From assembly GCA_030374765.1 (NCBI GenBank), contig JARGXX010000016.1, positions 558,001-622,000 of the forward strand: a DNA stretch of 64,000 nt, in the 5' to 3' direction. Below, piece after piece: positions 5,627 to 41,554 of the stretch (its first letter is position 1; each line of letters starts with the position of its first letter). A program made the position numbers and the translations under genes. Origin of the DNA: Agarophyton chilense. Lineage: Eukaryota > Rhodophyta > Florideophyceae > Gracilariales > Gracilariaceae. A model generated the notes under the pieces. That model was not told where the DNA came from. It did no database searches and saw only the letters and a list, made by a program, of their open reading frames with translations.

Positions 5627-8332
5627 TTAGGAAGTATTATTATGGGTGCCACCCAGTGGTGGTGTTGTGCCACCAGTGGTGGTGTTGGAGAAGTACGGCT
5701 TGGCAGTTGGGTCTCGGTAGAATCTGTTGAGGTAAAATCGATGGAAGCGCCAGTACAATCGAGGGGTGAAGGGGGGTGTGGGGTAGTTTTGGCGAAGTAC
5801 ATGAACCGGGCCGAGAATGGAAGAGGATGGTACGAGGCCGAACCAGGAGGAGACGTTGTCGGAGTTGGAAGTGTTTGAGATAGGAAGGGGGTGGGCGGTG
5901 TGGTTTTGTTCGTCGTCTGTTGCCCATCGGAGGCAGATGCAATTGAGAGAGACATCGACGTGATCCTGGGGTGGAACGAGTTCGAGGAACTGAACGAGGG
6001 CGAACTCGTTATGAGTGGAAGGGGAAGAAGGGGTGGTGAAGCGAAGAAGAGAGTTGAGCTTGCAGACCCAGGCGGTGGGAGTGGGGTTGGAGAAGCTGGA
6101 ACCGGCAACGAGGATGTGGGAGAACTTTGGGGTTTTAGAGGGACCGAAGGAGGGAGCAGCGAAGATACGTTGAATGAGTGGGAGAGGGGAATCTTTGACG
6201 GCGAGCTCGTTTCGATCGGCGATGTAGTCGTCTAGGGTTGGGGTGAAGCCGCCGACGACGTATGCGGAATTGACGAATGTGAGACGGGTTTGGCGGAGAG
6301 TGGGGGAGTCCTGGCTGAGAGCTAGTGTTTCGAGTGTGAGTGTGACGAAGGAGGGGAGTGCAAGGGTTCCAATCTGTGAGATGATGGCGATAGTGTCTGG
6401 AGAGAAGAGGTCCTGAAGGGAAGAGATTGTTGAGTGGGGGTTTGCTCGAAGGAATTTGTGAGCGGTGATGAGATCGGAAAAGGAGGTGTGCTTGCCATCA
6501 CGGACGAAACCTGGTTTGCGGGCTTGGAACGGAGGAGGAGGGGCATGGGAGGATGAGGTGACGGAAGGATCAGCGGAGAGAGAAATCCAATTGTTGACGG
6601 CATCGGAGCGTTTGATGGCACGGATGGGTTCGTTGTGCGCGGTGGGTCTGCGCTTGGAGGTTCGGGAGTAATGTGCTTTGAAGAGGGTATGGGCTTGTTC
6701 GAAGATGCCTGCATCGTTGAAGTGGAGACCCCCAAAACGTCGAATGTCGTCTACGATGTGATCGAGGAGGTGGAATTTGAGGGTGCCAAGGTTGGAGGTA
6801 TGGTATGGACCGAGAACATCGACAGCTCTGTGCTTGAAGGAATGGATTTGGGAGGCGAGTTTGGCAAGAAGAGAAGTGGTCCATTCGGGGACGGAGTTGT
6901 AGCACATGGAGGTGAGGAGGAGGTCTGTGTACTTGGAGAAGACGGTTGTGATGGGAGCGGAATTGGCTTCGTCACAGCAGCGGTCGAAGAAGGCGCCGAT
7001 GAAGGGGAAGACCATGTCGAGGGCGCGGTAGTCTTTTGCTTCTAGCATGCCGCGGACGCCGTCAGTTGTGAAGAAGCCGTTGAGGGACTGCCCGCTTTCG
7101 GAAGTAGAGAAGTCGATATGGAGGCCGGTAGCTGGGGAATGATTTTCGATGGCGGTGAGGATGAAGTTGGAGTGCTCGAGGATGGAGGTGCGGACGGAGT
7201 GGAAGGAACGGCGGGAGTTTGTGGAGCTGATGGTGGTGAAGAGGTGTTCTGATCTGAGACGTTCGATGGCGGCGAGCTTGATGAGTTTGGAAACGCCGAG
7301 GTGGAAGTTGTGGAGGGGTTCGAAGGGGAAGATGTTATATGGGGTGAGGAGGGGGGTGATGTTGAAAAGGGGGTAAGACTCGAAGAGGTAGGGGTATTTT
7401 GCGAGGGAGAGGGAGTGGAGTGCTTGGAGAGCTTGTTCCTTGAAGTTGCGCGAGACTCTTGGCTTGCGGGCGAGGAGAGCTGCTTCGGAGTCCTTGAGGA
7501 GGGAGAAGTGTTTGTTGTGGGCTGCAAGGGTGAGGGGAAGAGATCGAGGGGGATGGGCGTGAGAGTGTTGGTGGAGTTGTGGGCGAGGGACAGAGCATCT
7601 GTGGCAGGGGTGCTGGGGGCGGGTGCCGTGGGAGATGGCGAGAATATCCTTCGCCTCGGGAATGTCTGCGCAGTAGCTGGCGATGATGAGGTGGCATTGA
7701 CGAAGAACGCCGTCTGCGTCGCGGAAGGGGAAACCGGGGAGGGCGGAAGAGAAGAGAGGTTGAAGGAGGGAGGAGATGGTCTGCTGTACGAGTTCCATTT
7801 TTGTTTGGCGGGGGATAGAGGAGGAATGAGTGATGATATCTGCATCTGGAGAAGGAGTGATTGGGGTAAAGAAGGTGGGAAGATAGCCGAAGAGTGTGAG
7901 ATTGTCGGAGATGCATTTGCGGCGAAAGGAGTCGGAGAAGTTGAGAAGGGTGATGTGGAGGGGGTAGGAGGTGATGGAAGAAGATTTGAGAGAGGTAGAG
8001 GACTTGTCGGAGTAGATTTGGACGAGGCCGATGAAGGAGTCGATACCGGTGGAGTGAGGGAGATGCCAGACGATGTTATCTTTTGTGGACTGCATGATGG
8101 CGGTCTTGAGTGCGGGGACGACTTTTGAGCCGAGGGTGGCTGCCATGGGGTGTGTGAATGCGGGGGAGCCGGAGACGGATGTTTGGGAGATGGGGTGGAA
8201 AAATGTGTTCTTGAAGTGTGCGAGGGCGAGCTGTTGTTTGAGGACATGGATTGCGTTTTTCTGGAAGAGGGTTGCGGAGAAGCGTTTGTGGGGATCGAAG
8301 ATGGTGGAGGGAGCGAAACCAATGGACCTAAA
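5627..8332 (-). CDS. Plavaka/CACTA-like transposase
   Basis: A long, uninterrupted frame of about 900 codons encodes a protein resembling Plavaka-type (CACTA/EnSpm superfamily) transposases. Visible signatures are SYCADIPEAKD followed by PQHPCHRCSVP (the conserved Asp and Cys pair), a central FPFIGAFFDRCCDEA block, and the C-terminal LKFHLLDHIVDDIRRFGG ... FEQAHTLFKAHYSRTSKR block typical of the family. The first ATG is at 8146, but the frame stays open and protein-like upstream (FRSIGFAPSTIFDPHKRF) to about 8332. There the minus strand reads TTTCTGTCGCCGCAG, a good 3' splice site, so a short upstream exon is likely. No frameshift is visible. The extreme C-terminus has a short GGT-rich repeat (5647-5690). 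The family call is by motif recognition, and a truncated 5' end is possible. Confidence 0.62.
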   Translation of the reverse strand, partial: FRSIGFAPSTIFDPHKRFSATLFQKNAIHVLKQQLALAHFKNTFFHPISQTSVSGSPAFTHPMAATLGSKVVPALKTAIMQSTKDNIVWHLPHSTGIDSFIGLVQIYSDKSSTSLKSSSITSYPLHITLLNFSDSFRRKCISDNLTLFGYLPTFFTPITPSPDADIITHSSSIPRQTKMELVQQTISSLLQPLFSSALPGFPFRDADGVLRQCHLIIASYCADIPEAKDILAISHGTRPQHPCHRCSVPRPQLHQHSHAHPPRSLPLTLAAHNKHFSLLKDSEAALLARKPRVSRNFKEQALQALHSLSLAKYPYLFESYPLFNITPLLTPYNIFPFEPLHNFHLGVSKLIKLAAIERLRSEHLFTTISSTNSRRSFHSVRTSILEHSNFILTAIENHSPATGLHIDFSTSESGQSLNGFFTTDGVRGMLEAKDYRALDMVFPFIGAFFDRCCDEANSAPITTVFSKYTDLLLTSMCYNSVPEWTTSLLAKLASQIHSFKHRAVDVLGPYHTSNLGTLKFHLLDHIVDDIRRFGGLHFNDAGIFEQAHTLFKAHYSRTSKRRPTAHNEPIRAIKRSDAVNNWISLSADPSVTSSSHAPPPPFQARKPGFVRDGKHTSFSDLITAHKFLRANPHSTISSLQDLFSPDTIAIISQIGTLALPSFVTLTLETLALSQDSPTLRQTRLTFVNSAYVVGGFTPTLDDYIADRNELAVKDSPLPLIQRIFAAPSFGPSKTPKFSHILVAGSSFSNPTPTAWVCKLNSLLRFTTPSSPSTHNEFALVQFLELVPPQDHVDVSLNCICLRWATDDEQNHTAHPLPISNTSNSDNVSSWFGLVPSSSILGPVHVLRQNYPTPPFTPRLYWRFHRFYLNRFYRDPTAKPYFSNTTTGGTTPPLGGTHNNTS

Positions 8333-8627: not shown

Positions 8628-9900
8628 GTAGTTACGACAAAGAGCTGTGCCAAGTAGGTGTGATCCTTTCCTTTTATCTGTAGTCATACACTGTATTGCA
8701 AGTGTTGGACAAGGAGGTCTCTTTTTGTAGGACAATGCCCCCAAGGGGGAAAACCTACGAAGACGTCCGGATCTTCCTCTCACGAGGTAACCGGCGCGGT
8801 AGAGCCCTCCCAGGGATCGGCACGCAATGCCGGGTGTAAGCCAGAGCCGAACCGTCGCGACGGGCGCAGGGAGGCTGAAAGAAGCCGAGAATATCCGCCG
8901 AAGCGGTGCTTGCGTATCCTCTGAGGAGGCAAAACCCACGAGAGTGGCGAGCACGACAGGTGTCAGTGCGAGCCGCAAGAGCGGGAATTGCCCAATGAAG
9001 GGGAGGAAAAGGGAAGAAAAATGGGAACGGAGGCAAGAGGGCGAGGTTGACCACGAGTCGCAAGAGGGGACTCGGGAATAGCCGGCACTGCCGGTGTAGC
9101 AAACCGTATACACGGGCGGAACCACGAAAGTGGGAATAGATACCCAACGCACGAAGGCTGCTTGAACGTCCAAGGGGGTTGGGAAGCCGTGCACCACGGG
9201 AAATCCCTCCGTAAAGAGTTGTATATCCGCGCAGGCGGTTCGACCCAGAGCCAAGATCTGGAAGACCAAGATCACCCTTGTTGGGCAGACTTTACTGGAC
9301 CGGCGGCCGCGAGGCCGGCGGCCTAAGTACTGTAATCACCGTAGAATAGAATAAATAAAGTCTATCCTAAATAGCTAAATGTCCGTCTAACAAAAGGTGC
9401 TAATCTGGCGGCCACGTGTCGCGCGGGCGCTGCGGCCACGTGTATGGCACCCGGTCCCGCCGGTGCATCACCGGCGTTCCGGCCATCGCCGTGAAAACGG
9501 ATTACTCCTACTCATAACGAGGTTGCACGCCGGGGGCTCCGGAAAAAACTTAAGTCCCCAAAAAACCTCCCTGGAGGACGTTGCTCTTCACTTTTATATA
9601 ATAACAAGGAGTCATGTAGAACAGCACTGTAAGCATCGCAATAAGGACTGCCTATCCAAGAGCGCACAGCGTTCCAACAAAACTGCATGGCAAGCAGTTT
9701 TTGTCATCCAGTTACAGGTTTTTATCGCTCTTGGTTAGGTAGCTCTCCTTGCCATGCTTACAGTGCTGTTCTACATGACTCCACATTGTTCTATAAAAGA
9801 GACCTCCTGGTCCAAAACTTGCATTATTGTGTAAGACTACAGTTCAGAGGACAGGAGCACCCCTCTTTTGCACAGCTCATGCATTACAGTGTAAGTATAG
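8628..9900. mobile_element. Foldback (long inverted repeat) element, interrupted by a solo LTR
   Basis: If the LTR at 8726-9590 and one CTTTT are removed, the left arm (about 8628-8725 joined to 9596-9667) is an inverted copy of the right arm (about 9733-9900). A 29-bp block is a perfect match (9611-9639 against 9754-9782). The outer parts, such as GAGCTGTGC and GGAGGTCTCTTTT, match at roughly 80% by eye. The arms meet around a short loop near 9668-9732. No ORF is present, so this is a non-autonomous foldback or MITE-like element. Outer ends and target duplication are not resolved. Confidence 0.75.
8726..9590 (-). repeat. Solo LTR of the element 1 family
   Basis: This 865-bp LTR starts TGTAGGACAATG and ends TTGCTCTTCA on the plus strand, nearly identical to 2269-3133. 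It is flanked by the 5-bp duplication CTTTT (8721-8725 and 9591-9595). No internal retrotransposon sequence is attached, so it is a product of LTR-LTR recombination. The foldback arms on either side become continuous when the LTR is removed, which confirms the boundaries. Confidence 0.95.
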
Positions 9901-10454: not shown

Positions 10455-10507
10455 TGTTCATAAGGACAAGACCTAGACGCTGCTGCCACAGTCACTGTGG
10501 TTCGCGC

Positions 10508-11425
10508 TGTAGAGCAACGCCCAGTTAGGGGATACTTGAAGATGCAACTCATAGAATGAGGATTGAACCCTCCGAGGGTTATGACTATGATCCCCTCTAA
10601 GGTGTGCTGAGGTGGCACTGTTTTCCGGTTAGAATTCGCCGATGAAGTGAAGATTCGGATGGCCCATGGTTGGATTGGCCCCGTGATACACGTGGCTTAA
10701 TTTTGGCTTCGATTTTTCGGATATTTGTAAGAACGTTGGATTTTTGGGCCCTGACAATGGGATCTCCACGTGTATGGCCCTGAGCAGGTGTGCACTACTG
10801 TAGAGTTTAGTTAGTGGGCCCTACTTAGGGAGACGAGATCTGACAGTCCGAAGCTCAAAGTAAAAGGAAAACCAAGGTTGGTCTTCGATACCTTTAGAGG
10901 TTCTTCGTCGCCATCGTTTCGGCCTTACAACTCGGAACGGGCTCTGGTTAGCAACGCCTGCGTAGGGACACGACTCCACTTGGAGAGTGCCCACGTTTGG
11001 GTTCCGTGCAACCACCCCTTTGGGACCGTTCAGACGACCTGCGTGCACGATACCCCGTGGGGGTTCTGCTTACTTGTTGCGTGCTTTTTGTGTTTCCTTT
11101 CGAGGACAGGTTTTCGCCCCTGTATTGGGTTTCTTTTGTTGTTTTGCCCCTTTTCTGGTTCTCGGGTCCGGTGCCTGTTAGTGCCCGACCCTCGCCCCGT
11201 TTTTCCTCTTCGCCGGATTTTCCCCCATTCTTTGGGATACCCATACCCATTCCCGACCCAACGGTTTCTACCCCTCACCTCCGTCGGTACTGCGAGAATC
11301 CCCCGTGAGAGTTACACCCCACACTACGGGTGGAACGGAGGGCTCTGTCTCTGAGTCTGCCTCCCCCAGGGAGCAAGGCTTCGAACACCTTGAGAGCACT
11401 TCCCGTCGCCGGGTTTTGCTCCACA
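10508..11425 (+). repeat. 5' LTR of element 2
   Basis: A 918-bp repeat begins TGTAGAGCAACGCCC and ends TTTTGCTCCACA, matching the 3' LTR at 21349-22236 apart from scattered substitutions and a 30-bp stretch near 11121-11151 missing from the 3' copy. Confidence 0.96.
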
Positions 11426-11427
11426 AG

Positions 11428-11448
11428 TAATCTCCCGACTTAGAAACC
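11428..11448 (+). other. Primer binding site of element 2
   Basis: TAATCTCCCGACTTAGAAAC follows the LTR by 2 bases. Compared with elements 1 and 3, the first bases (TAA versus TGG) have diverged while the core is kept, which could weaken priming in this copy. Confidence 0.55.
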
Positions 11449-11652
11449 GTTCTCGGACTTGTGGGTTGGTCATCCACGTGTTGGAATATCTCTTGGAAGA
11501 GGAAGCACCGTCGTGAAGATTTGTTGTAGTGGTCCCCTTTGGAAAGGGTGGAATTGGTTTTTATTTTTGTTTTGTGTTACGTCATCCGTTCTCCGGGAAT
11601 CTCGTGATCGAATTTCATCGTTACCCCGAATCGTCGGTGTCGTGTCTGCAGC

Positions 11653-13683
11653 ATGTCGCCGCCTACCCGTGGTTCCAGGACTGGATCGAACCGTCAAGCG
11701 AATTCAGTGCCCCCGGCCCCGCCTAGGTCGAGGAGCTCAATTCCCGAAGATCGGAACGATTCCGGTATCGATCCGGACACTCGGAGAGCACCCTCAGTGG
11801 TTTCAGGGCCTCGAGAGGTCGTGGCTGTGGGCCCAGCTCCAGTGGTGGAGACCCCCTCAGCAGCACCCCAAAGTCGGGCCGACCCTGAATTACAGCGCCT
11901 GGAGACTCGAATCGATATCGCCAACGCGGCTCACGTCGAGCTCCTTCAGGAGGTTACTACCCTCCGCTGCAAAGTGGAGGACGTTCAGGAGCGGGGAGTC
12001 GCCGATGACCTTCGTACCCTGAGGAGGGATGTGAACTCCCTTTTGGAAAGCTTTGGTACCCCTCGAGTCTTTGTCCAGGAGTACCGGAGCCTCGTAGAGG
12101 AACACCGCGTGCAAGCGGAACGCTTCCGAGCTCGGCTGGACACCCTCGAGGCCATTATCCGTATGGACGGAGACACAGAAGCCTCGAAGGATAAACCCGA
12201 CGTTTCGGAAGACGAAGAACACCGCTCCGCTAAACGGGACCGCCGCAAGTCCAAGAAGAGGGTTCACCTCCAAGAGGATTTATCGGATTCCGATCCCAAT
12301 CGCTCGTCATCGAGTTCGTCCTCCGAATCTTCGGATAGTGAAGATGGACGCCGGTCATCCCAGGCGACTCGGTCGAAGGCTACTTACACCTCTCAAGGGG
12401 CAATCCGTACCCGGAAGAAGGGTAGGAAACACCTTGGATTAAAGGAGCTGAAGCCGACGAATCCTCTCTATCGGAAGCTGCTATCGTACCGCTATTACCG
12501 GTTGGATAACCCTTCGGGAGATCGAACATCCCGCGGAACGGGTAAGGTCAAGGACTACATCAAAAGGCTGAGCATCACCCTACAGAAGAGGGAGTTCACA
12601 GGAACAGACCCAATTCTGGTGCTCGATTTCCTTGCGAGGTTCGTCCACGAGGCTGACATCCTCGGTATGAGTGAAGCGCAAGCGTATCTTGCATTACCCT
12701 ATTTCTTAAAGGGGATGGCTGAAGACCAGTTCAACTCCGTCCGTGGATCATCCCGAGCCTCGGAAGGGGGAGTCACGTGCTGGCCCGAAGCGGTGCAGTA
12801 CCTCTTGAGGTCGTACGCTACTGGAAATGCGATTCAGGAAGCAATCCTTGCATTAAGGGATACGCGGCAGAAGCCGATGGAAACCGAAACGGTGTATTCA
12901 ACTCGCTTGAATAAAGCGTTTCACCGATGCGGGAATGTATTCCCCGCCTACGAGAGATGCTCCATGTTTGTGGATGGTTTGGACCCCTCGATATGGGCAT
13001 TGGTTGCCCGACATCGGGAAGAGAAGCGCAAGCTGACCTACTTGGAACGGGTTCAGTACGCCCAGGCTGAGGGAGATACTCTCCGTGTCCGGCAGAACCG
13101 AAAGAGTCGGCCGACACGTGCACTCCTCGCCGATGGAGGTAACTCGTCTTTGTCACTCGCAGGAGGCCCTGCCCCTGTGGGGGTCAATGATAACATTCAC
13201 TTCATGGGAAGTAGCCCCGAATCTATGGGTACGTCTGAGTTGCCGTCGACATCCGCTCCGACTACGGATGAAGACCCTGCGCTCTATACCCAAGGACGGA
13301 GGGTGCCAGCCGCATCGCTACCTTTTGCGAATACCGCTGCTCGGTTCTCTTGCCCCGGATGGAGGGATACAGCACCACGTCGCGTGGATTCACGTCCACA
13401 ACCGAACCCGGCAGAGCTGATTTGCTATTTGTGTTACCTCCGTGGTCACAAAGCACCAGACTGCACATTTCCCCTGCGGGAGGGTTCACGAATTATCGCT
13501 CAGTACGAGGCTCTGACCCCTGAGGAGAAAGCTCGAGTCCCGAGTAGGTCCTATGAGGAACAAAGGATACTCCGAGCTCACCTTGCTGACAGGGATACAG
13601 AACTTGTACCCGCGAACGGGGAACAACCGGTCCCCTTCGAGGCAGCTGCACCGAATTCGGTGGGGTCCGCTTCGAAAAACTAA
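11653..13683 (+). CDS. gag polyprotein of element 2
   Basis: An intact 676-codon gag encodes the structural protein of the retrotransposon particle. The N-terminus is proline/arginine-rich, then comes a helical segment (ADPELQRLETRIDIANAAH onward). A basic KRDRRKSKKRVH block and an acidic serine run (SSSSSSESSDSEDGRR, near residues 215-235) precede the capsid-like domain with YRYYRLDN and GGVTCWPEAVQYLLRSYAT. A single CCHC zinc knuckle (CYLCYLRGHKAPDC, near 13421-13462) is at the nucleocapsid end. The ATG at 11653 begins MSPPTRGSRTGSN, comparable to element 1. The frame differs from pol, with no overlap. Confidence 0.92.
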   Translation: MSPPTRGSRTGSNRQANSVPPAPPRSRSSIPEDRNDSGIDPDTRRAPSVVSGPREVVAVGPAPVVETPSAAPQSRADPELQRLETRIDIANAAHVELLQEVTTLRCKVEDVQERGVADDLRTLRRDVNSLLESFGTPRVFVQEYRSLVEEHRVQAERFRARLDTLEAIIRMDGDTEASKDKPDVSEDEEHRSAKRDRRKSKKRVHLQEDLSDSDPNRSSSSSSSESSDSEDGRRSSQATRSKATYTSQGAIRTRKKGRKHLGLKELKPTNPLYRKLLSYRYYRLDNPSGDRTSRGTGKVKDYIKRLSITLQKREFTGTDPILVLDFLARFVHEADILGMSEAQAYLALPYFLKGMAEDQFNSVRGSSRASEGGVTCWPEAVQYLLRSYATGNAIQEAILALRDTRQKPMETETVYSTRLNKAFHRCGNVFPAYERCSMFVDGLDPSIWALVARHREEKRKLTYLERVQYAQAEGDTLRVRQNRKSRPTRALLADGGNSSLSLAGGPAPVGVNDNIHFMGSSPESMGTSELPSTSAPTTDEDPALYTQGRRVPAASLPFANTAARFSCPGWRDTAPRRVDSRPQPNPAELICYLCYLRGHKAPDCTFPLREGSRIIAQYEALTPEEKARVPSRSYEEQRILRAHLADRDTELVPANGEQPVPFEAAAPNSVGSASKN

Positions 13684-13688
13684 ACTAG

Positions 13689-16600
13689 GGAGTCTCCCCT
13701 GCGGGAGGGTCGTCTTCTAAGCCGGAGTTGAAGACGCCCGAGGCGCTCCAGCTTCGCTTACCAGCTGTGACTATCCTTTCAAGGAGAACGGCTGACACCG
13801 ACGTTAACTCGGGATACTTTAGTGTCCTCCGTCGCCCGTGGATACGGTCCCGTAATCTCCGTATTCCGGATCGAGTTATGGTAATGGCCAAGCGGAATTA
13901 TAAAGTATTCGCCGACTTCGGCCTGTCCAACCAGTTCATGGTTCGTCAAATATCTGTCCTGGATACAGGAGCCGCTCCTAACGTAATTCATGTTGAATTG
14001 TTACCCCCGCTGCTCCGGGTTCAAGTTCGTACCGGTCCACGTTTGGATATCGCCGATGCGAACAACAACCCGCTACGGACACTGGGTACAATTTCCCTCA
14101 TGGTGAGGTTAGGCTCCTATCTCGTTCAACTAGAGTTTATTGTATGCAAGTCATTTGCAGCACCAGTCATACTGGGTTGTGACTTTTGCGACCGCTTCGT
14201 GGAAGCCATCCGTCCTCGGAATAGAACTGTGGAACTCGAAGACGGGTCTACGATCCCAATCGTTCGTAAACCCTTACAGGGAGCAGCGCGAACACGCGTT
14301 CCTCTCCCTGTCGCGCAGGAATCTCTGAAGAAGGACCCAGTGTCTACACGGGTAAGGGTTGCGAAGTCAGTGGCTATCCCGCCAGAAACCCAGGTTTGGG
14401 TCACAGTTGTTACCAAGCAAATTGGTGTGCATGTGGTACAACCGAACCCGTCTCTGTATACGCGGCGTCAACTCGCCCTTGCGAATGGGGTTGTCTCCGT
14501 GGAACCGGATAAACCTTTCAAGGTTTTGGTAGCCAACTTTGGAAAGACAACGCAGCATTTGGTCAAACACCAGATCCTGGGTTCTGTTCTTCCACACCCG
14601 CATACGGTCGTACCTACAAAGATCTCTATCGCAGAGGTCCTTGGTGTGGCGGACCCTAAGGAGGGGGAGGACACTGCCGAAATCGCGGAAGACGGTGAGC
14701 ATACGACTGCAGCTCCACACGCTGAACACTTTAAACCTCAGGAGGTTACGGCCCCTATCACAGGAGCAAACCAGACGGATCCTGTTCAGGAATTGGAGAA
14801 ATGGGATCTCAACCATGTACCCGCATCTCATCGGGAGAAGCTGAGGCACATGCTTCGTGGATTTACCCCCATGTGGGATGGTTCCCTTGAAACTATTGGG
14901 ATTACAGAACACCGCATCGACTTGTTACCGAACACTCGGCCTATTGCCAAACATCCTTACAGGGCTGGACCGAAAGCTCGGGAAGAGGAGAAATCTCAGG
15001 TGGAGAAGATGCTTAAAGCGGGCGTAATTGAACCTGCCCAGTCCGCTTGGGCCTCACCCGTGGTGTTAGTTCCGAAACCGGATGGATCGTGGCGTTTCTG
15101 CATCGATTACAGACGCCTGAACGAGGTAACCATTAAGGATGTGTACCCGATCCCTCGGATGGACGAATACATCGACTCCCTTGGGAGCGCTACTGTTTTC
15201 TCTACCCTCGACGCCAATTCGGGCTACTGGCAAGTCCCTATTAGGGAGGAAGATCGAGACAAAACGGCTTTCGTTTGTCATCAAGGACTTTTCCGAATCC
15301 GCAGGATGCCTTTTGGGTTGACAAATGCCCCCGCAACGTTTCAACGGGCGATAGACATTCTGTTGGCTCCCTTCAAGTGGAGGACGTGTCTAGTGTATTT
15401 AGACGACATTATTGTCTTCTCCAACAACCTGGATGACCACCTCGAACACGTCAGGGACGTAATGAAGATACTCCGCGACGCGGGAATCACCTTGAAACTC
15501 AAGAAGTGCGAGTTTTTCACCGATTTGGTTAAGTATCTGGGTCATATCATCCGTCCCGGACAGCTTTCAATCGATGAAGTACGAGTGAAATCCTTGAAGG
15601 AAGCAAAACACCCGAAAACTCAAACGGAGTTGCGATCCTTCTTAGGTCTGTGTAACGTGTATCGCCGATTCGTCCCGAACTTTGCAGATATTGCCACCCC
15701 CCTCAACAGGCTCCTGACGAAGAGACAACCAGTTGAACTGGAACCTTTTGGCGACGCGGAAGCGTCTGCCTTCACGGCACTGGTGAATGCCGTAACATCA
15801 CCGCCCATCTTGGCTCTACCCAATCCTGGGCTCCCTTACGAAGTGGACACCGATGCTAGTGCAAACCAAGTAGGGTGTGCACTGTTCCAATCCTCTGAGG
15901 ATGGTGAACGTCACCCTATTGGGTACTGGTCACGTTCCCTGAATGTCCATGAAAGGAACTACTCGGTCTCCGAGAAAGAATGTTTAGCCGTTGTGTGGGC
16001 CTTAGCTACACTTCGCCCCTACCTGATGGGTACTCGTTTCAAAGTCCATACAGACCACGCATGTTTGCGTTGGCTCCTGGAGATCTCCGAACCCTCGGGC
16101 CGCCCTATGCGCTGGCGTCTCCGACTGTCGGAATTCGACTTTGAGATCCTGTACAAGAAAGGGAAGCTGAACACTCAGGCTGATGCACTATCCCGCTTGG
16201 GAACCAAAGCAGAAACGGAACCCTACGAGGACGATGACATCCCATGTTTTATGGTATCGGACCTCGAGGGAGGAGCTCAACCGCTGACGAATGATGTTTG
16301 TGACGATATACTCGTCAACGAGAGTCTGGATTCGCCGACCGGCTCTTTTATACCTATCTCTCCAGAGGAGATGATACGCGAGCAACAGCTCGACCCATTC
16401 TGTACACGGATTCGGGCTCGCCTCAACGGAGGATTTCAATTACCTTTCGAGGACGACGATCGGGGTTACCTAATCAGGACCGTTGGACCTCGCCCGAGGA
16501 TAGTGGTGCCGCACACCCTACAACAGAGTGTATTACACCTCACTTACTATGTGAAGGTTGGCGTCCACCCCGGGGGAAGAAAACTGTACCTCACGTTGAG

Positions 16601-18194
16601 AAGGGACTTTTACTGGCCGGCCATGGCATTCGACTGTTACGCCGTCAGACGGGCCTGCGCCAATTGCGCCAACAATGACGTCAAACTTCGGAAGCACTCT
16701 AAGAAGTTGACGCTGTTCCCGACACGGGCTCCACTCGAATTCGTGGCCATAGACATCCTAGGGGAGTTTATCAGGACGCCCCGAGGTCATCGGTATCTGC
16801 TTGTCATTTCTGACAGATTCTCTAAGCTATCGAGAACTGTGCCGCTGAAGCGGATCACCGCCGCTACCGTCGCGCAAGCGTTCGCGACCCATTGGGTGTT
16901 CGTATATGGACCGCCGGTGCAGTTGTTATCCGACAACGGAGGGCAATTCGCATCAAAGTTCTTTCAGGATGTATGTCGAATCCTTGATGTAAGGAATTTA
17001 TTTGTTACTACGTATCACCCTCAGGGGAATGGCCAGGTGGAGAGGTTTAACCGCACGATACTCAACGATTTGAGATCGTATGTTGCGGATCACCCCAAAA
17101 ATTGGGACTTGTACACAGACGCTATCACGTAGGCATACAACACCCAGGTACATCGGGTTACATCGTTATCCCCATTCGAACTGGTACTGTCGAGGACACC
17201 GCCGCCGGTCGCCATCGAGGCTCAACCGACGCTGTCGACGTACCCGTCACCGGGATTGTACCGAGAAGCCTGGAAGGAGTGGCTTACGAAGATGGTGCCG
17301 ATAGCCCGGAAAGCAATGAACAAAGCTCAACGCGCCTACAAGAAGGACTTTGACAATCGGGTTCGCAAACCTCTACCTCAGGTGGAGCCCGACAACTCCG
17401 TTTTCTTTCGAAAGGAATACTACAATCCTGAAAAGGAACGTAGGCACAAGCTTTCGCCAATTGTGGACGGACCCTATCGCGTGGTTTCTGTAGACCCGGA
17501 CACGGTGGTATTGAATATCGCTAACCGCCACGAACGGATCTCCAGGGACCGCATCACACGAGCGCCCAACCCAAATGTCGAAGTGGTGTCGGCACCAACG
17601 CCCTCCACAGGGGATGATTCAACGGAAGTTAACCCGTCAAGCGGAGATTCGAACACCCGCCCCGTTATACTTCCGCACCCGGAACGTGGTTTAACCGACC
17701 TACCGGAAACTTCGGATACTCCCGAACCTGGGCCCGCCCCCTCAAGGGCCCAGTCAACGAACTCTTACAGAGTTACTCCCCCACCGGAGGTAATCAAGCC
17801 TCCTGGCTCTCCGCCTAAGGAGGGGGAGGAGGACTTAGTTCCTTCGCAGGACGATGTTTTGGCGTCAGCCAGTCGCCCTAACAGGGAATGTAGTTCTCAC
17901 AGTGAGACGGCGAGCCCGACCGAGCCGGCGACAGAGAAGTCACAACCCCAGCGTATGGGTAGCGACATCACCGCCGACCCAGCCGAGCACGACGTCAGAA
18001 AAGATGACGAAACCCCGCCTAGGGAGAGTCGTGTGGAGAACTCCGCACCCGGAACGCCTACAGAGCCGACGATCACCCACCGCCGCGGACGACACACTGA
18101 GGTGTCGCACACTCAAACCCCGCTTTCTCGGGAACGAACTGTGTCAGCGGACCCGCACGGGGAAGATCTCGACGACGAGGTTGACCAAATTTAG
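13689..18194 (+). pseudogene. pol polyprotein of element 2, one in-frame stop in integrase
   Basis: This encodes the enzymes for reverse transcription and integration. Order seen: aspartic protease (VLDTGAAPNV, ILGCDFC); reverse transcriptase with RMPFGLTNAPATFQR and active site LVYLDDIIVFS; RNase H (VDTDASANQVG, SVSEKECLAVVWA, HTDHACLRWL); integrase with an HHCC-type finger ending CANC; catalytic D, D35E (FVAIDILGEF, LLSDNGGQF, GQVERFNR); and a GPY/F module (LSPIVDGPYRVV). A TAG at 17130-17132 lies where a Tyr codon is expected (DAIT-stop-AYNTQV), and the frame resumes unchanged to 18194. The frame opens at 13689 without an ATG near its start, so pol probably depends on gag translation. The C-terminal tail is long and acidic/proline-rich. 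Confidence 0.93.
13694..13707 (+). other. Hairpin between gag stop and pol (element 2)
   Basis: CTCCC-CTGC-GGGAG forms a 5-bp stem with a 4-nt loop, 10 nt past the gag stop (13681-13683) and just past the TAG that bounds the pol frame (13686-13688). A like hairpin follows gag in element 1. Confidence 0.4.
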
Positions 18195-18769
18195 CTCTCC
18201 GTTATGGAATGGGAATAAAAACTCCTATGGAGACACTGAAACCCTCAGGAATGGGAAAGAAATGAGTGAGACCCGTCGGGGACAGCTCAGGAGAGTGCTA
18301 GCGCGTGTCGAAAGCGCCACCTCACATCCGCTTGCGGAGTGGCAACCGGCGCCCGCGCATTTATGTGGCACACGTCGAATGGCACTGAGCCAATCAAAAG
18401 GCTCTGACGACCAACCGTCTCGCAAACCGCCTCAGTCGCACGGCGCGTTGCACGAGAGCAACCTTCGTCCCCGTAGCTCGGGTTGACGTTGAAGTCCTAC
18501 CCCCCCTGAGATTGGAGACGCTACCGCGTCGCGGTTTCTCAACCGTCACGGAATCTAAGGACACTGTTGTTATCGGGAAGATCTTACCTTTAAGAAAAAG
18601 CCAAAACTGGGCCGTTTTGACTCCGTAGACGGAAGTTACAACGTAGCCCACAGGCCACTCGGCGCCGTTTGGACGAAGTGCTGAGACCCGCTTGCAACAC
18701 GGAAAAGAACCCACCGGGGTGTGTCTAGACCCTACGTTGACACCCTCAAGGGAACTAGAGCGTTCCAAG

Positions 18770-19009
18770 ATGGAAGAGAAGCCCGAACAGGGAAAATTGT
18801 ACCCGCAGGAATTCGTTATCGATCGCATCGTGCGTCATATCTACACCCCCGAGGGAGAAGTCCGCTACCAAGTCCGATGGTACGGATTCTCGCCTAAGGA
18901 GGATACAGTGGAACCCATTGAGCACCTTCCGAGGTCTAAGGTTTTATCCTATCACCGACGCGCTCGGGTAACCTTTCCTCCAAGTCTGGATCGTGCCCAA
19001 GTCGTGTAA
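18770..19009 (+). CDS. Chromodomain ORF of element 2
   Basis: A 79-codon ORF encodes a chromodomain-like fold: EFVIDRIVRHIYTPEG, then YQVRWYGFSPKEDTVEP, then a short helix. In chromoviruses a chromodomain at the integrase C-terminus helps target integration to marked chromatin. Here it is about 575 bp past the pol stop and in its own frame, starting at the ATG at 18770 (MEEKPEQGKLYP). In element 3 the chromodomain is still in the pol frame. It may be expressed from a spliced or separate transcript; the intervening 18195-18769 has only a weak ORF from 18262 (MSETRRGQLRR). Confidence 0.75.
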   Translation: MEEKPEQGKLYPQEFVIDRIVRHIYTPEGEVRYQVRWYGFSPKEDTVEPIEHLPRSKVLSYHRRARVTFPPSLDRAQVV

Positions 19010-19179
19010 GCCACCACGGGAACTGGTGTGGATGGGATCTCGAAGTGAGGAGGATGTTGGACCTCTGAAGAGGAATTGAGGAGAGTATCCCGAACAACAC
19101 GTATTGAGAGGGAATGTCTACTGGCCCTCGGCCTAGCGCCGTTAACCGGGGAACACAGCACCGGTTATCGGGACAGTTT

Positions 19180-19345
19180 ATGATGAAAAAGGAAAAGAAG
19201 ACCCACGAAGTGGAGAAGAAGATTAAGAAGAAGATTGGACCCTAGGAAGGGAAGAAGATGAAGACAAAGATGAAGAAGATCCTAAGAAGGAATGAAGAAG
19301 ATGAAGTAGAAGTTAAGATCCCAGGAAGCAAGAAGAAAAGAAGTT
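19180..19345 (+). other. GA-rich (polypurine) tract
   Basis: About 165 bases are almost entirely A and G on the plus strand, built from GAAGAAGA-like units. It lies between the chromodomain ORF and the 3' end of the antisense ORF and is too far from the LTR to be the plus-strand primer. Confidence 0.7.
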
Positions 19346-19410
19346 ATGAAAATATCAGAAGTTTACTATTGTCGCCAAGCTATAGACTCTACAATTACCC
19401 GAAGGCGGAA

Positions 19411-21267
19411 CTACGGAAAGCCCGAGGAGGGACCCGCCCCACCGTTGGGATTCTGACCCTGATGGTACGCCGAGGCGAAAGCCAACATCTGGCTCACATC
19501 CGTCATACCCGGGGGAATCGAAATGCCCCCGTTCACGAGGCCTTGTCGCACACTATCTGCTTGCGGAGTGGCAACTGGCGCCTGCGCAAGGGTGTTCACA
19601 CCCCATCCGGGGGGAGCAGATGGACCGCCACCGGATGCATTCGCCGCCCCAGCTGAGGTCGTTTCCACTGGTTGGAAGGGTGCAGATGGCTCCACAGGGA
19701 GTACTCCACTAGGAGCTGGCATGTCGTTATCCAACGCTGGATCATCCAGGTCTACTGGAGGCTCGTGCTCGTAGTCGTCGGTATAAATGAACCCCGTCGG
19801 GTGTCCCACCGGCATCGGTCGAGGCGAGTCCATCAGCGCCCGTGCTTGCGCCGCGCTGATGCAAACCCCTTCGAAGGGATTGTAATATACCCAGTTACCG
19901 GAGCCCGGATCGTACCGGCCAGGAGACTTGTCTCGCGCGGATCCTTCCCCTGCGGGCTGATTTTCCACTGGAACTCGATCCCATTGGGTGTTGTCGATCA
20001 CGTCCAAGATTGGATACAGGTCTTGCACCTTGCTGACCGAACCCAACGCTGGGACAAGGTCGATCTGACGCATGAAGGTCCGTAGCATCGGAGGAATATA
20101 CCAGACACGGAAATGGTCATGAGCATCCCAGAGGAGGTGCGCCGCTACGCGGGCTGCCCACTCGGCTGCAACGAGGGCCCAGTATCCCGAGTTCGGGTCG
20201 TGCATCAAACGAGACCCGATATAGTAGATGCACGGGGGCAGTTCAGCAAAGCACCCTCGGGGGACCTCGACCTTACTCCACCAAGCTGGAAGGGGCACGA
20301 ATCGCCCAACCTTCGCCGTGTTACGGATACGCTCCAGTTCCACGTGAGGATACGGGACAAGGAACCCGAAACGGGAGCGCGAGCGGCGCTCGAAGCGCAC
20401 GCGTCGATCGAACCCATACTGGGTAAACTGCCGTTGAAGGTACCTAAATTCAGCCCGAAGAATGGGAGGACTCCATTGGAGCATATCTTCTCGGAGAGGA
20501 AAACCCGGTCCGCGGAACTCGGCTCCGGGAAAGGCTGCCAGGTTATCCCCGTAGGAGACCTCACCGTACGTGCGGTAATAGGCGACATCGAACCCGTACT
20601 CTGGGGGAACCAGATGGTCAAAGCGTGACCTCTCCAATCGCTGGTAGGCCAGAGCCGCCATCGCTGCGCGCGCCTTGTCCAGGGACTCCCCGCGACCGCG
20701 GTATAGATACTGAGGCTCTATGGCTACCCGCGCCCTCCAATCGGGAGAACGTACAACCTCGACAGGTAGGCCACCCGGCAATAAGCCGTCCTCCACGTAG
20801 GAGTCGATGAGCTCATCGTCGCGAACCGCTGTCGGATTGAACCACGGAGCGCGGGAATATATCACCGGATCGGTAAGGGGACTCCACCTTCGAAAGGATT
20901 CGTTCGAGATCCAACCTCTGGAGTTTGCTACCAAGGGCATCGCATGAGCGGAGTTCCACGCCACTGCGTTAATGGCCAAATCCTCCTGAGGATGTCGGTT
21001 GCTCGCCGAGGCGGAAGGTTCGGTACCTGACGGAGCCGCATCCAAACCGGAGAAATATCCACCCTGCTGGGGAGTTTCGTTGTCCGCCGGCGCGGAGGCC
21101 AACGGCCCCGAGAGTGGGTTGGTGACGTATGGGTTCATTCCTTTGAGAGGTTTGGTTGAGACTGCTGTTGCGAGAAGTTGCTTATCGCCGAAAGTCGGAG
21201 GAGTAGAAGAAAGTTGTACCGATGTGCCGGTTTTGTGGCGATCCCCAGAAGTGGTGAAGGACCCCAT
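19411..21267 (-). CDS. Antisense ORF of element 2, unknown conserved protein
   Basis: An uninterrupted antisense frame encodes 618 residues from the ATG at 21267 (MGSFTTSGDRHKTG); it is open to 21306. A second candidate start is the ATG at 21138. The protein has no motif I know. It shows a Ser/Pro-rich N-terminus, a central region rich in Arg, Tyr and Trp (SRFDHLVPPEYGFD, FRYLQRQFTQYGFDRR, FRVWYIPPMLRTF) and a Pro/Gly/Ala-rich tail. There is no signal peptide or clear membrane helix. A decayed homologue occupies the same antisense position in element 3 (54959-57115), sharing RDxEL...PxGL, W..VE...PP...YW and ALxD...G...GF blocks. A TATATATA motif lies about 10-20 nt upstream of the first ATG. 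Antisense ORFs are known in some plant Ty3/gypsy elements and in deltaretroviruses; no relation to those is claimed. Confidence 0.72.
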   Translation of the reverse strand: MGSFTTSGDRHKTGTSVQLSSTPPTFGDKQLLATAVSTKPLKGMNPYVTNPLSGPLASAPADNETPQQGGYFSGLDAAPSGTEPSASASNRHPQEDLAINAVAWNSAHAMPLVANSRGWISNESFRRWSPLTDPVIYSRAPWFNPTAVRDDELIDSYVEDGLLPGGLPVEVVRSPDWRARVAIEPQYLYRGRGESLDKARAAMAALAYQRLERSRFDHLVPPEYGFDVAYYRTYGEVSYGDNLAAFPGAEFRGPGFPLREDMLQWSPPILRAEFRYLQRQFTQYGFDRRVRFERRSRSRFGFLVPYPHVELERIRNTAKVGRFVPLPAWWSKVEVPRGCFAELPPCIYYIGSRLMHDPNSGYWALVAAEWAARVAAHLLWDAHDHFRVWYIPPMLRTFMRQIDLVPALGSVSKVQDLYPILDVIDNTQWDRVPVENQPAGEGSARDKSPGRYDPGSGNWVYYNPFEGVCISAAQARALMDSPRPMPVGHPTGFIYTDDYEHEPPVDLDDPALDNDMPAPSGVLPVEPSAPFQPVETTSAGAANASGGGPSAPPGWGVNTLAQAPVATPQADSVRQGLVNGGISIPPGMTDVSQMLAFASAYHQGQNPNGGAGPSSGFP

Positions 21268-21277
21268 TGGGAGACCA

Positions 21278-21287
21278 GTATATATAG
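21278..21287 (-). promoter_or_regulatory. TATA-like motif upstream of the antisense ORF
   Basis: GTATATATAG sits just outside the first ATG of the antisense ORF. A start site about 30 bp downstream would fall past that ATG and favour initiation at the ATG at 21138. The motif is symmetric, so direction is not given by the sequence alone. Confidence 0.3.
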
Positions 21288-21335
21288 CGACCGGAACGCG
21301 AGACACCCGCGGCTCGGAATGTTCTTCCTCGTCTT

Positions 21336-21348
21336 AAGGAGGGGGAGA
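21336..21348 (+). other. Polypurine tract of element 2
   Basis: AAGGAGGGGGAGA directly precedes the 3' LTR, the standard position for the plus-strand primer. Confidence 0.9.
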
Positions 21349-22236
21349 TGTAGAGCAACGCCCAGTTAGGGGATACTTGAAGATGCAACTCATAGAATGA
21401 GGATTGAACCCTCCGAGGGTTATGACTATGATCCCCTCTAAGGTGTGCTGAGGTGGCACTGTTTTCCGGTTAGAATTCGCCGATGAAGTGAAAATTCGGA
21501 TGGCCCATGGTTGGATTGGCCCCGTGATACACGAGGCTTAATTTTGGCACCGATTTTTCGGATATTTGTTAGAACGTTGGATTTTTGGGCCCTGACAATG
21601 GGATCTCCACGTGTATGGCCCTGAGCAGGTGTGCACTACTGTAGAGTTTAGTTAGTGGGCCCTACTTAGGGAGACGAGATCTGACAGTCCGAAGCTCAAA
21701 GTAAATGGAAAACCAAGGTTGGTCTTCGATACCTTTTGAGGTTCTTCGTCGCCATCGTTTCGGCCTTACAACCCGGAACGGGCTCTGGTTAGCGACGCCT
21801 GCGTAGGGACACGACTCCACTTGGAGAGTGCCCACGTTTGGGTTCCGTGCAACCACCCCCTTGGGACCGTTCAGACGACCTGCGTGCACGATACCCCGTG
21901 GGAGTTCTGCTTACTTGTTGCGTGCTTTTTGTGTTTCCTTTCGAGGACAGGTTTTCGCCCCTTTTCTGGTTCTCGGGTCCGGTGCCTGTTAGTGCCCGAC
22001 CCTCGCCCCGTTTTTCCTCTTCGCCGGATTTTCCCCCATTCCTTGGGATACCCATACCCATTCCCGACCCAACGGTTTCTACCCCTCACCTCCGTCTGTA
22101 CTACCGGAATCCCCCGTGGGAGTTACACCCCACACTACGGGTGGAACGGAGGGCTCTGTCTCTGAGTCTGCCTCCCCCAGGGAGCAAGGCTTCGAACACC
22201 TTGAGAGCACTTCCCGTCGCCGGGTTTTGCTCCACA
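21349..22236 (+). repeat. 3' LTR of element 2
   Basis: An 888-bp LTR starts TGTAGAGCAACGCCC and ends TTTTGCTCCACA. It lacks a 30-bp stretch found in the 5' LTR. It is followed by the CGCGC target duplication. Confidence 0.96.
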
Positions 22237-22515
22237 CGCGCCGTCCACGTTCAGGACCCACTACGAGAAGCGGTCGCTCACTTGGGCGCCACTGTACGTG
22301 CTGCTACTGCTCACCGTCATGCTGGGCACTTCGCTACGCCACGCGTACGGCCGCAACGCCTACTTCGCCATCTCGCTGCTGCAGTGCGCCTCGGCCGTCG
22401 TCGCCCCGATTCTGGCGCCAGCTAGCGCTGATCGCCACCTCCCTTTGTGCTCTCGATTCTGCGACAAAGCTTTTTCGAGGTTTGCTGTGTTCTCGTTCTC
22501 CGGCTATTACAGTGC
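22237..22515 (+). pseudogene. Cycloeucalenol cycloisomerase-like gene, N-terminal part
   Basis: Joined across element 2 (10488-10507 plus 22242 onward), the frame begins SLWFAPSTFRTHYEKRSLTW and continues with hydrophobic segments APLYVLLLLTVMLGTSL and AYFAISLLQCASAVVAPIL, then ASADRHLPLCSRF. Length, order and spacing resemble the N-terminal half of plant CPI1, which opens the cyclopropane ring of cycloeucalenol in the ER membrane during sterol synthesis. The coding frame breaks off near GYYS at about 22510, where a Tc1-like element begins. No clear start codon survives upstream. Identification is from remembered family features, not a search. Confidence 0.6.
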
Positions 22516-25960: not shown

Positions 25961-28087
25961 ATGTCATCAACTATGGATCCCCGTCGTGGAGTGACAAACA
26001 GAGTAAACACCCGCGCACGTCTTATCACGTCAAAGAACGACTGTAAACGCTTCTTTAGCACGCAATGACAGGCAAAACTGGTAAGCGGAATTGTTACAAA
26101 AGTGGACGTTGTTGTCAATAATAATCGGAGACATACTTTTGTCACTATAAACTTCGAGCTACCTGGTTGCGAGAAAGTATGCACTCTCCAACTTTGCAAT
26201 GTGAAAGCCGGGGATCATGTCACATTTAAGGAAAGTGCTCAAGAAGCCATCAATTCCAACGTGGAGATAAATGGTGCTGCTGTTACTAATAAAGTTTCGA
26301 ATAATGAAGAGCAGCATACTCTCACGGATGGCACTCACAGTCACACAATGATTCCGTTGAGCCCTCCTACTGTGACAAACAGTGACACTTAAGACAGCTT
26401 TGTGGAAGGTCATTCGACGAAATGAACAACGAAAAATGTACCCTTGACTCTGAATGGTCCAGTGCAAATGCATCAATGGAAAGTCACGGGCCCTGATGGA
26501 GATTTTATCTCCGCCATTCATGCATCTTCGGGACTTTTTCCATACGATTTCTTCATGTGGATGTTTCCTGTAGCTCATTTGGAAAAATAGCTCGATCTAC
26601 CAACTCTCTGCTGGATGGAAAAGGCTTAGACCACACTACAGGAGGTGAATTTTTGAAGTTTTTCGGTTTGATGGTGTTAATGGCACGCTTTGAGTTTTCA
26701 AACAGAAGATCACTTTGGTTAAAAGACATGTTTTCTAAATATATTGACTCTTCGCAGCTCGGAAAGATCATGTCACGAAATCAGTTTGAACCTATACGGC
26801 AATTTATCGTTTTCAGTGGCTCTGAAAACGATCAAAAATCAGAAGAATGCAGATGGTCATGCGTTTCTGAGTTTATGAAAGCTATAAATGACCATCGGAA
26901 AGCGTTCGTAACTCCTACACATACTTTGTGCGTAGACGAAAGTATGTCACGTTGGTATGGACTTGGAAGGAACCGGATTGAAATTGTAGTTTCACACTAC
27001 ACTGCTCTTGATGGGAAACCTCAAAATGGGTGTGAATTAAAAACACTGTGTTGTGGACGAAGTGAAACTATTCTTAAAATATAAATTACTATAGAAGCTA
27101 CGCAAACAGATGTACAGCCTTTTGAATCGAAACATGCGCATGGAACAGCTGTTTTAATGAGACTTGCAAAAAATTGGTTCGCAACTGATCGAATCGTTTG
27201 TGCCGATTCATGTTTTGCATCTGTTGAAACAGCTGAAGAACTTTTAAAAAGAGGAACGCCATTTATTGGGGTTGTAAAAACAGCCACCAGAAGGTTTCCT
27301 GTGAAACAACTTGCCGAACTTATGATGACGGCACGAGGCCAGCACGTGTCAATCGTCTCCAAACTGCCTTAATTGGATCGGAAGATGATCTTTGTGCTCT
27401 GGGTGGACCGTGAGAGGAGATATTTCATCAGCACTTGTAGCAGTCCCCAACCAGGAACTCCCATTTCTCGTGAAAGATGGAGGACAAATGATGGAATAAC
27501 AAAGAAATTTCCGCTTTCCATTGCTATTCCAGAGGTTGGCGAAGAGTACTATTCTTGTTGTTCAAGAATTTATAGGAATAATAGGCCACGTCAAGATGAT
27601 ATAAATATGAAAAAGAAGTTTGAAGTGAAAGAATTTGTCTTTTAGAATGAATATTTCTTTGCTGGCAATGTACGTGGTGGATGCTTGGAATCTTTAGAAG
27701 GGTGCATACGGAAACACATTGAATCTTACACCCCATAATTTCTATTGTAATCTCGCAGACGGATTAATAGATAACAAATGGGATGCAATTCGAACTATAA
27801 ACAGAAAATGTAAGGAGGAAGATGAATTAGAAAACCCATATATGGCTGGTACCGGCATTCATTTAATGGAGACCAATCTAGAAAGAAGGAAATTGGATGG
27901 TTCTTTGACGTCTCAAACATATCAAGGACGATGCAAAGCCTGCAAAACCACTAACAAATCCAAATTTGTTTGTTCAGAATGCAAAAAGCACAATGATATT
28001 GATAATTATATAGGTCATAGTGGAACCGGTCGTGAATGCTCTATAGATCATCTGCGTGACATTCATCAAATTTTAAGCAACATTTAG
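25961..28087 (+). pseudogene. piggyBac-like transposase
   Basis: The frame starts at the ATG at 25961 (MSSTMDPRRGVTNRV), with an in-frame TGA near 26066. Domains follow in several frames: an N-terminal module (SGIVTKVDVVVNNNR, TFVTINFELPG), the DDE core with LCVDESMSRWYGLG and ALDGKPQNGCELKTLCCGRS, the second Asp block RIVCADSCFASVETAEELLK, and a C-terminal Cys-rich finger (GRCKACKTTNKSKFVCSECK). At least three frameshifts separate these parts. The reading of DDE and finger order follows the piggyBac (DDE_Tnp_1_7) family. It cannot make a full protein. Confidence 0.78.
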
Positions 28088-40476: not shown

Positions 40477-41554
40477 CTCCTTGCTTCCGCAAGGCAGACT
40501 TATCCTTCTTAAACTCCTTACGAAGTTTTGCCGACTTGTGAAGCCTTCGCTTCATTGACTCGCTTATCAAAACCTCGTGTTCCTCTTCGAGTTCTCTGGC
40601 CGCTTCCCAGTTGCCAGTCTTATCAACCATTGTCACTGCAGCCAATCTACAAATTGCCAACTCCACCGCCAACTCATTTTTAGCGCGCATAACGCCCAAA
40701 GAGCTGATGAGGCAGTCGATAACCCGAGCTATTGTTGCAGCTTCCCGGCGGTTCCGAATGCCCGTCAAATGACGAGCTTCAACCCACGCAGAGACCGTCG
40801 GATAATTCGTCAGGGCTTTACGGAGCATATCTTTCCCTTCAAGACTGTCAACCGAAACATATTGTTCAGGAAACAGTTTGCTAGCGAAAGCAACCCAGAA
40901 CTTCTTGTTCGCCTTCTGCCGTTTCGAATTCAAAGCCTTCTTAGCAAGGCTCGAAATCCCCTCATCTCCACCGTCGGACTCTGAGCCAGTGTCATTGCCG
41001 GAATCGACAACAACTCCTTCCATCGCCTGTCCGATGTCGACAAGAAAATCCTCCCCCTTTGACTTCTTCTTTGAATTTTTCCGCGACTTCTTCAATTCCT
41101 TAATGTCTTTAGACATGCGTTTCTGCGCCTTCTCCAACCCCTCCATGAAAGAAAGAATTTTCTGCATTTCACTGAGACGCATAGTAGCCTCTTCCTCAGA
41201 GTCAGAATCCGGAGCGGACTCGGACTCGTATTCACTCGAGGATTCACCCTCTTTGCCCCCCGTCACGCGTTTCGAACGCCCTCGAGGTTTTTGATCCAAG
41301 ACGGTTACAACTCGAGTACTCGCTACTCCCTTAGAAGACCCCGCTTTCGGCTCACTTCCTCCGACACTCAGTGAGTATGTTTTATCTTCAATGCAATGGA
41401 ACAAGACGTCCGTCTCTCCCTCTTTAGAGATTCCCGGAATCTCATTCCTGATTACACGAAGGAGAGCATTTTTGCTCTGTGACTTTTCTCCAAGGTAAGC
41501 TGAAAGCCTGCCCCGAAAAGCTTCTCTTACGACTCCTAAGGCGTCTTCCCCCAT
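40460..41554 (-). CDS. gag-like ORF of the DIRS-like element
   Basis: An intact 364-codon ORF begins MGEDALGVVREAFRGR. It contains an acidic Ser/Glu/Asp-rich stretch (ESSSEYESESAPDSDSEE), a basic helical segment (KDIKELKKSRKNSKKKSK) and a C-terminal helical region with many charged residues. It has no zinc knuckle, as is usual for DIRS gag. It overlaps the RT ORF in a different frame. The name rests on position and composition. Confidence 0.68.
   Translation of the reverse strand: MGEDALGVVREAFRGRLSAYLGEKSQSKNALLRVIRNEIPGISKEGETDVLFHCIEDKTYSLSVGGSEPKAGSSKGVASTRVVTVLDQKPRGRSKRVTGGKEGESSSEYESESAPDSDSEEEATMRLSEMQKILSFMEGLEKAQKRMSKDIKELKKSRKNSKKKSKGEDFLVDIGQAMEGVVVDSGNDTGSESDGGDEGISSLAKKALNSKRQKANKKFWVAFASKLFPEQYVSVDSLEGKDMLRKALTNYPTVSAWVEARHLTGIRNRREAATIARVIDCLISSLGVMRAKNELAVELAICRLAAVTMVDKTGNWEAARELEEEHEVLISESMKRRLHKSAKLRKEFKKDKSALRKQGDGNKN

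Follow-up and report, generated by a model that had tools for sequence, protein, structure and literature searches.

A selected antisense accessory gene in chromoviruses of the red alga Agarophyton chilense

Introduction

LTR retrotransposons are known to carry antisense accessory ORFs, which are as yet unexplained. In plant Ty3/gypsy elements, aORF-3R (maize Grande gene23, rice RIRE2 and Silene Retand) is a long extra ORF, present in most copies and conserved to the degree of other retrotransposon proteins, that runs antisense between pol and the 3′ LTR, and GENE23 of Grande has been reported to be a nuclear protein (PMC7264820). Retand belongs to a non-chromovirus lineage, and its antisense ORFs mostly contain a TRP28 domain (PMC11963269). 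For GENE23 and the Retand ORFs, proposals include a nuclear action on the element's expression, or on its cDNA or integration (PMC7264820, PMC11963269). The Boty-like retrotransposons of Botrytis cinerea carry an antisense extra gene, brtn, beside a Ty3/gypsy gag-pol with a CHROMO domain (PMC4227169, PMC8365987); as described there, Boty is a precedent for an antisense gene in a chromovirus. In retroviruses, the 3′ LTR of HTLV harbours an antisense promoter (PMC7264820) and the HBZ protein of HTLV-1 is nuclear (PMC11963269).

Here we describe an antisense accessory ORF (aORF) in the red alga Agarophyton chilense, within a window of 64,000 nucleotides (positions 558,001 to 622,000 of contig JARGXX010000016.1, assembly GCA_030374765.1). 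Like aORF-3R, the aORF is antisense to gag-pol and lies between pol and the 3′ LTR; it differs in its red-algal host, in a carrier element with a chromodomain, and in having no Pfam domain match. It also differs from the Retand ORFs, as it lacks TRP28 and is carried by a chromovirus, whereas Retand is a non-chromovirus. Grande and RIRE2 are likewise not known to carry a chromodomain. The likeness to brtn of Boty, also an antisense extra gene in a chromodomain Ty3/gypsy element, is one of architecture, and the host of brtn is fungal, whereas that of the aORF is a red alga. HBZ and other retroviral antisense genes share the antisense orientation in a different class of element, and may resemble the aORF in function.

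Results

A complete chromovirus carries a long antisense ORF

Element 2 (10508–22236 of the window) is a complete Ty3/gypsy chromovirus, with the order reverse transcriptase–RNase H–integrase, a chromodomain 3′ of the integrase, LTRs, and a 5-bp target duplication, CGCGC, read directly on the left (10503–10507) and, identically, on the right (22237–22241). Both LTRs start with TGTAGAG and finish with CTCCACA. The 5′ LTR (10508–11425, plus strand), delimited by blastn against the 3′ LTR (21349–22236, plus), differs from it by 17 mismatches and one gap opening over 918 columns, or about 1.9% substitutions. The gag-like ORF of 676 aa (11653–13683, plus) is assigned from its position and from its 49% and 29% identity to two further gag-like stretches within the window, and matches no Pfam family over the cut-off. 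The pol region (13728–17132, plus) has Pfam matches to RVT_1 (8.7e-39), RT_RNaseH, rve (the integrase core) and Integrase_H2C2, and a weak protease-like part that matches gag-asp_proteas at E 0.07 only. It is followed by the C-terminal part and tail of the integrase (17256–18194, plus; 39% identical to family B, described below, over 109 residues), the chromodomain (18812–18958, plus; Pfam Chromo, 1.3e-8) and the polypurine tract AAGGAGGGGGAGA (21336–21348, plus).

The aORF occupies 19411–21306 on the minus strand. Within the element it lies past the chromodomain and short of the polypurine tract, which falls within the putative 5′ leader of the antisense gene. The frame measures 640 codons from stop to stop, 631 from a GTG and 618 from the first ATG, so that the 618-codon stop-free frame between chromodomain and 3′ LTR claimed in the first-pass annotation is confirmed. 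Because the relative P0001 begins at an MNP equivalent to the ATG at 21138, this ATG may be the start, which would give a protein of 575 aa. In simulations of the region, the longest frame was 375 codons in 2000 first-order Markov runs and 583 codons in 2000 second-order runs, and 640 codons was never reached. A single plus-strand ORF of at least 150 aa, of 171 aa, is listed within the stretch.

Three element families carry a long antisense frame

We searched the genome assembly (79.8 Mb, 135 contigs) for further copies. The scored matches are the best-scoring subset of each search, and the copy counts are lower bounds; all the places scored for family A, family B and the element 3 family, E3 (at least 70, 75 and 98, respectively), were located via the ORF itself. 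Similarity and, for the most part, an open frame decided which copies were fetched (open in 18 of 20, 7 of 7 and 6 of 6), and their stop counts are biased accordingly. With the element 2 protein as query, the best 70 scored of 1877 candidates, family A, are 93–100% identical; all 70 span at least residues 7–630 of the 631-aa query and 37 have no internal stops. P0002 and P0001 as queries gave at least 77 and 75 scored places, and those checked by coordinates are family A places.

Family B was found with the relative P0004 as query, the best 75 scored of 1644 candidates being 38–41% identical to it; 21 of the 75 places are stop-free in the matched stretch, as are all seven fetched copies. L059, the family B copy examined with its flanks, has pol and a chromodomain on one strand and, directly past the chromodomain, a 611-codon frame on the other. 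The aORF-3R placement, antisense between pol and the 3′ LTR, is found in element 2 and, on the chromodomain side, in L059. Chromo scores above the Pfam cut-off in the elements of A and B, and under it (21.7 vs 25.1 bits) in the E3 relative L011, the piece of which ends within the domain. The aORFs of A and B are 35% identical in amino acids over 583 codons, with identities at codon positions 1, 2 and 3 of 0.51, 0.56 and 0.30.

In E3, the best 98 scored of 995 candidates are 70–79% identical to one query copy, itself excluded, and nine of them are stop-free; in copy L066 the antisense frame is open for 748 codons. Other elements of the same genome, in families A, B and E3, hence carry the antisense frame, which is open in some copies.

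Three copies have features of their own. In L059, part of a third protein related to the aORF product, closer to P0001 (47% identity), lies at 7206–8141 (plus), adjoining the B-family element in the orientation opposite to the B aORF. In family A, L005 has the usual aORF and LTR, but its integrase tail is unrelated (about 51% different) and its chromodomain is 20% different, and L003 has an LTR that is 18% different, which suggests from the sequences that both are mosaics formed by recombination between subfamilies.

The frame in element 3 is a likely remote relative

Element 3 lies on the minus strand of the window. Its broken pol (58295–61501, minus; located by tblastn) is 39.6% identical to that of element 2, and the region holds short ORFs only. 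The first-pass annotation had placed a decayed antisense frame at the same position as in element 2; the window copy (54871–57150, plus) is indeed broken and very divergent, and some of its kin, as noted above, retain open frames. It is identified as a likely aORF homologue by the family profile, by hhalign and by those open kin.

In tblastn, neither the A protein nor P0001–P0004 matched the element-3-family loci at 1e-4, and the link between E3 and A therefore rests on profiles. Nine proteins, from A, B and the databases, were combined into a profile, which was run against pieces of 30 element-3-family loci. It gave nine matches at E<1, all on the antisense strand and at profile positions 228–400, and 23 of 25 matches at E<=10 fell on that strand; a 3-mer-shuffled control gave five matches, the best at E 3.8, so that the profile search outperforms its shuffled control. 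In hhalign, seven E3 open frames aligned with the A/B profile at E 8.5e-5 (probability 60%, 199 columns, 19% identity); DHFRVWY is set against SEDWRVWY there, and ILDVIDNTQWDR against LLDHVLQVEWGK of element 3. The E3 antisense frame is thus likely, not certain, to be a remote homologue of the A/B aORF.

The motif blocks first proposed as shared between elements 2 and 3 fared unevenly. The WxxVE..PP..Y block fits the profile alignment, but AEF and AEY are paired otherwise and RDxEL falls, unconfirmed, outside the aligned part. For the last block (ALMD..GFIY with ALLD..GFLW) the register was probably wrong, since the profile alignment pairs LLDHVLQVEWGK with ILDVIDNTQWDR. The relationship between A and B is closer than that between A and E3 in both pol (53–57% vs 40% identity) and the aORF (35% vs 19–27%), as expected if the two were inherited together.

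Relatives, domains and motifs

Four relatives of family A were found in protein databases, at E 1.5e-154 to 3.0e-68 (all those at E<=10; 7997 candidates scored), the sole named one being BWQ96_10156 of Gracilariopsis chorda. An alignment of five aORF sequences has 80 invariant columns, for example in PILRAEFRY. The E3 protein has three relatives, all from Agarophyton chilense. P0006 matches this genome at 98–99% over residues 155–410, in two pieces, and its first 146 residues at no more than 76% among the matches listed.

In agreement with the first reading, which recognized no domain, Pfam shows no known domain for A, five members of A1, B (L059) or E3 (L066), the TRP28 (Transposase 28) domain included, and NCBIfam none for the antisense protein. 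The best match in a PDB sequence search (E 0.64) was taken as chance, and of nine stretches in IMG/VR viral contigs that fit a pattern from the protein alignment, none encodes a relative. Three protein searches, with sensitivity limited to shared five-residue words, found no named relative outside red algae and, among their matches, no protein named as fungal. This narrow distribution is what a fast-evolving anti-host factor would leave, and so suits a host or foreign gene captured once, in reverse, by an ancestral chromovirus and kept for disarming host silencing. We consider such a capture quite unlikely; no separate host homologue is recognizable among the scored matches, a weak point against it given that these are mostly element-like and few were examined with flanks. 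Inverted repeats that might mark a nested old DNA transposon amount, near the aORF, to four short imperfect pairs, none of which flanks the ORF.

Close to their C-terminus the E3 proteins have a basic motif, PPKKRARL, that resembles a nuclear localization signal (NLS). Of 36 E3 copies, 18 keep its KKRAR core where the C-terminal stretch is aligned; the majority of the rest depart from it at one or two positions. None of P0001–P0007 contains the pattern K[KR]x[KR], though six of these seven have looser basic clusters.

The antisense protein is under selection

Variants between copies fall into two classes, those that change the amino acid (N) and silent ones (S), and w denotes the observed N/S ratio divided by that expected from the same mutation types, including CpG context. 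In the 26 of 30 E3 loci that have sufficient integrase flank, w of the antisense frame falls from 1.17 for single-copy variants to 0.70 for those in at least two copies, 0.37 in at least four (124 N, 164 S) and 0.18 in at least eight (20 N, 53 S). For the same four classes, the integrase end and chromodomain of these 26 copies give 0.98, 0.84, 0.47 (74 N, 70 S) and 0.36 (13 N, 17 S). Constraint on the aORF is thus similar to or stronger than that on the integrase and chromodomain, with smaller counts for the latter. A set of 36 E3 copies, six of them picked for open frames, shows the same pattern of w in the aORF. Private variants of E3 look neutral. The picture is one of neutral decay of each copy once inserted, with the protein preserved in the lineage that goes on transposing.

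The other frames of the E3 aORF stretch have w of at least 0.94, except the mirror frame on the gag-pol strand, which drops to 0.28 at eight or more copies. In the integrase control, the mirror frame has w 0.30 against 0.36 for the true frame, and one more frame has 0.63 at eight or more copies (28 variants). Since the mirror is low in both regions, w alone cannot separate a frame from its mirror; the two are told apart by the length of the open frame and by homology between species. The reduced mirror value could hint that the aORF is a chance frame or an artefact, such as a shadow cast by a coding sequence of the gag-pol strand. The same echo in the integrase control, the sole 171-aa ORF listed on the plus strand, the simulations that never reached the aORF length, and interspecies homology in the antisense frame all speak against this, and we give it virtually no credence; a chance frame is already refuted, as judged from sequence, by conservation across species.

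That antisense RNAs might regulate plant LTR elements has been discussed (PMC7264820), and a selected antisense RNA that controls the element through dsRNA, with the long frame incidental, might be considered. The constraint acts at the level of amino acids, however, with third codon positions less conserved between A and B than first and second ones, and w drops in the antisense frame and its mirror only; we regard an RNA product as highly improbable.

The family A set comprises 28 copies, namely eight loci (window copy included) and 20 chosen copies, 18 of them stop-free, and apart from two gap columns in one copy none has a deletion relative to the window copy. Here w is 0.87 for single-copy variants and 0.64 for those in at least two copies; the latter divides into 0.53 for the core, 0.15 for the C-terminal part and 2.80 for the first 95 codons past MNP (13 N, 2 S). 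Upstream of MNP, w is 1.62 (22 variants). Variants in at least four copies show no constraint (w 1.27; 19 N, 6 S). Family A is young, and its constraint, modest in amount, sits in the core and tail. Seven B copies, which are not informative, give 0.94 overall and 1.69 at two or more copies.

Two lines of argument were discarded. The unconstrained stretch upstream of MNP was dropped as evidence for the start codon, as the 95 codons downstream are equally unconstrained in family A. An apparently far slower change of the aORF than of the LTR and integrase tail in L001–L008 is mostly due to the two mosaic copies, and the remaining difference is small.

In sum, the aORF is a real protein-coding gene, antisense, fixed in place and selected. 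The past selection that had been proposed for the antisense protein is upheld by three divergent families, by red-algal homologues and by a frame-specific constraint comparable to that of the integrase. As to dN/dS, shared E3 variants bear the proposal out, but single-copy E3 variants and the family A variants in at least four copies do not.

Other features of the window

Direct repeats of about 670 bp, 97–98% identical (2267–2936 and 8724–9392), flank a minus-strand ORF of 839 codons whose product has a Plavaka transposase domain (5627–8146), and a gag-like ORF that is 49% identical to the element 2 gag (793–2301, minus) adjoins them; the whole has the look of an LTR element that a Plavaka transposon has interrupted or joined. 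At 26557–27084 (plus) lies a transposase fragment (Pfam DDE_Tnp_1_7, 1.2e-17), which we take to be of piggyBac type. A reverse transcriptase-like ORF at 39046–41554 (minus; RVT_1 E 0.0013, under the Pfam cut-off), with a 364-codon ORF ahead of it, possibly belongs to a DIRS-like element. The single-exon alkaline phosphatase gene at 46134–48344 (plus; Pfam 1.8e-74) is probably a host gene. A fragment at 52380–52829 (minus), with a weak SH3_Tf2-1 match (E 0.0048, under the cut-off), may be an integrase tail from a further gypsy element, located just outside element 3 on its aORF side.

Discussion

The three divergent families, the red-algal homologues and the integrase-like constraint support the earlier suggestion of an accessory gene belonging to this retrotransposon lineage. 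The aORF has probably been passed on with the element from a time before A, B and E3 diverged. We favour, with moderate confidence, the view that it is a real accessory gene of red-algal chromoviruses, encoded antisense, whose product is probably a nuclear regulator acting on element expression or on the incoming cDNA/integration complex. Transcription would start at a putative antisense promoter located within the 3′ LTR or next to it, because the frame begins just inward of the 3′ LTR; we propose the 3′ LTR as the seat of the promoter. The protein would act in the nucleus, as the NLS-like KKRAR/PPKKRARL motif of the E3 proteins suggests, and there it may regulate expression of the element or act on the incoming cDNA/integration complex, by analogy with GENE23, the Retand ORFs and HBZ. 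The nuclear and regulatory step is thus one that we infer from analogy and from one motif of the E3 family.

The main rival to a regulator is a structural or cDNA-handling protein, such as a capsid partner, a nucleic-acid chaperone or a targeting cofactor of the chromodomain integrase. Integrase-like constraint and spread over widely diverged families suit a core part of the element's cycle, and nothing in the sequence speaks of regulation. Antisense coding, however, uncouples expression from gag-pol and is better suited to a regulator than to a part of the particle, and the NLS-like motif of E3 likewise counts against a structural role, which we judge rather unlikely. A more far-reaching reading, which we judge less likely than not, is that red-algal chromoviruses as a group possess an ancestral antisense gene, as essential to them as integrase and retained over most of their radiation, which would be an independent counterpart of HBZ with a fold unrelated to known families.

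The first-pass annotation had called the gene a new feature. The architecture is already known, and element families with about 40% pol identity share it; the protein family and the red-algal hosts appear new, the comparison with BRTN being one of architecture. A literature survey of titles and abstract openings, mostly of papers outside subscription, gave no report of an antisense ORF in red-algal elements.

The aORF adds a protein family without a known domain to the small class of antisense accessory genes. Three families in one 80 Mb genome, with more than 200 scored places and a comparison with integrase in the same copies, provide direct evidence of selection at the protein level, and the role of backwards accessory genes becomes testable in a cultivable alga.
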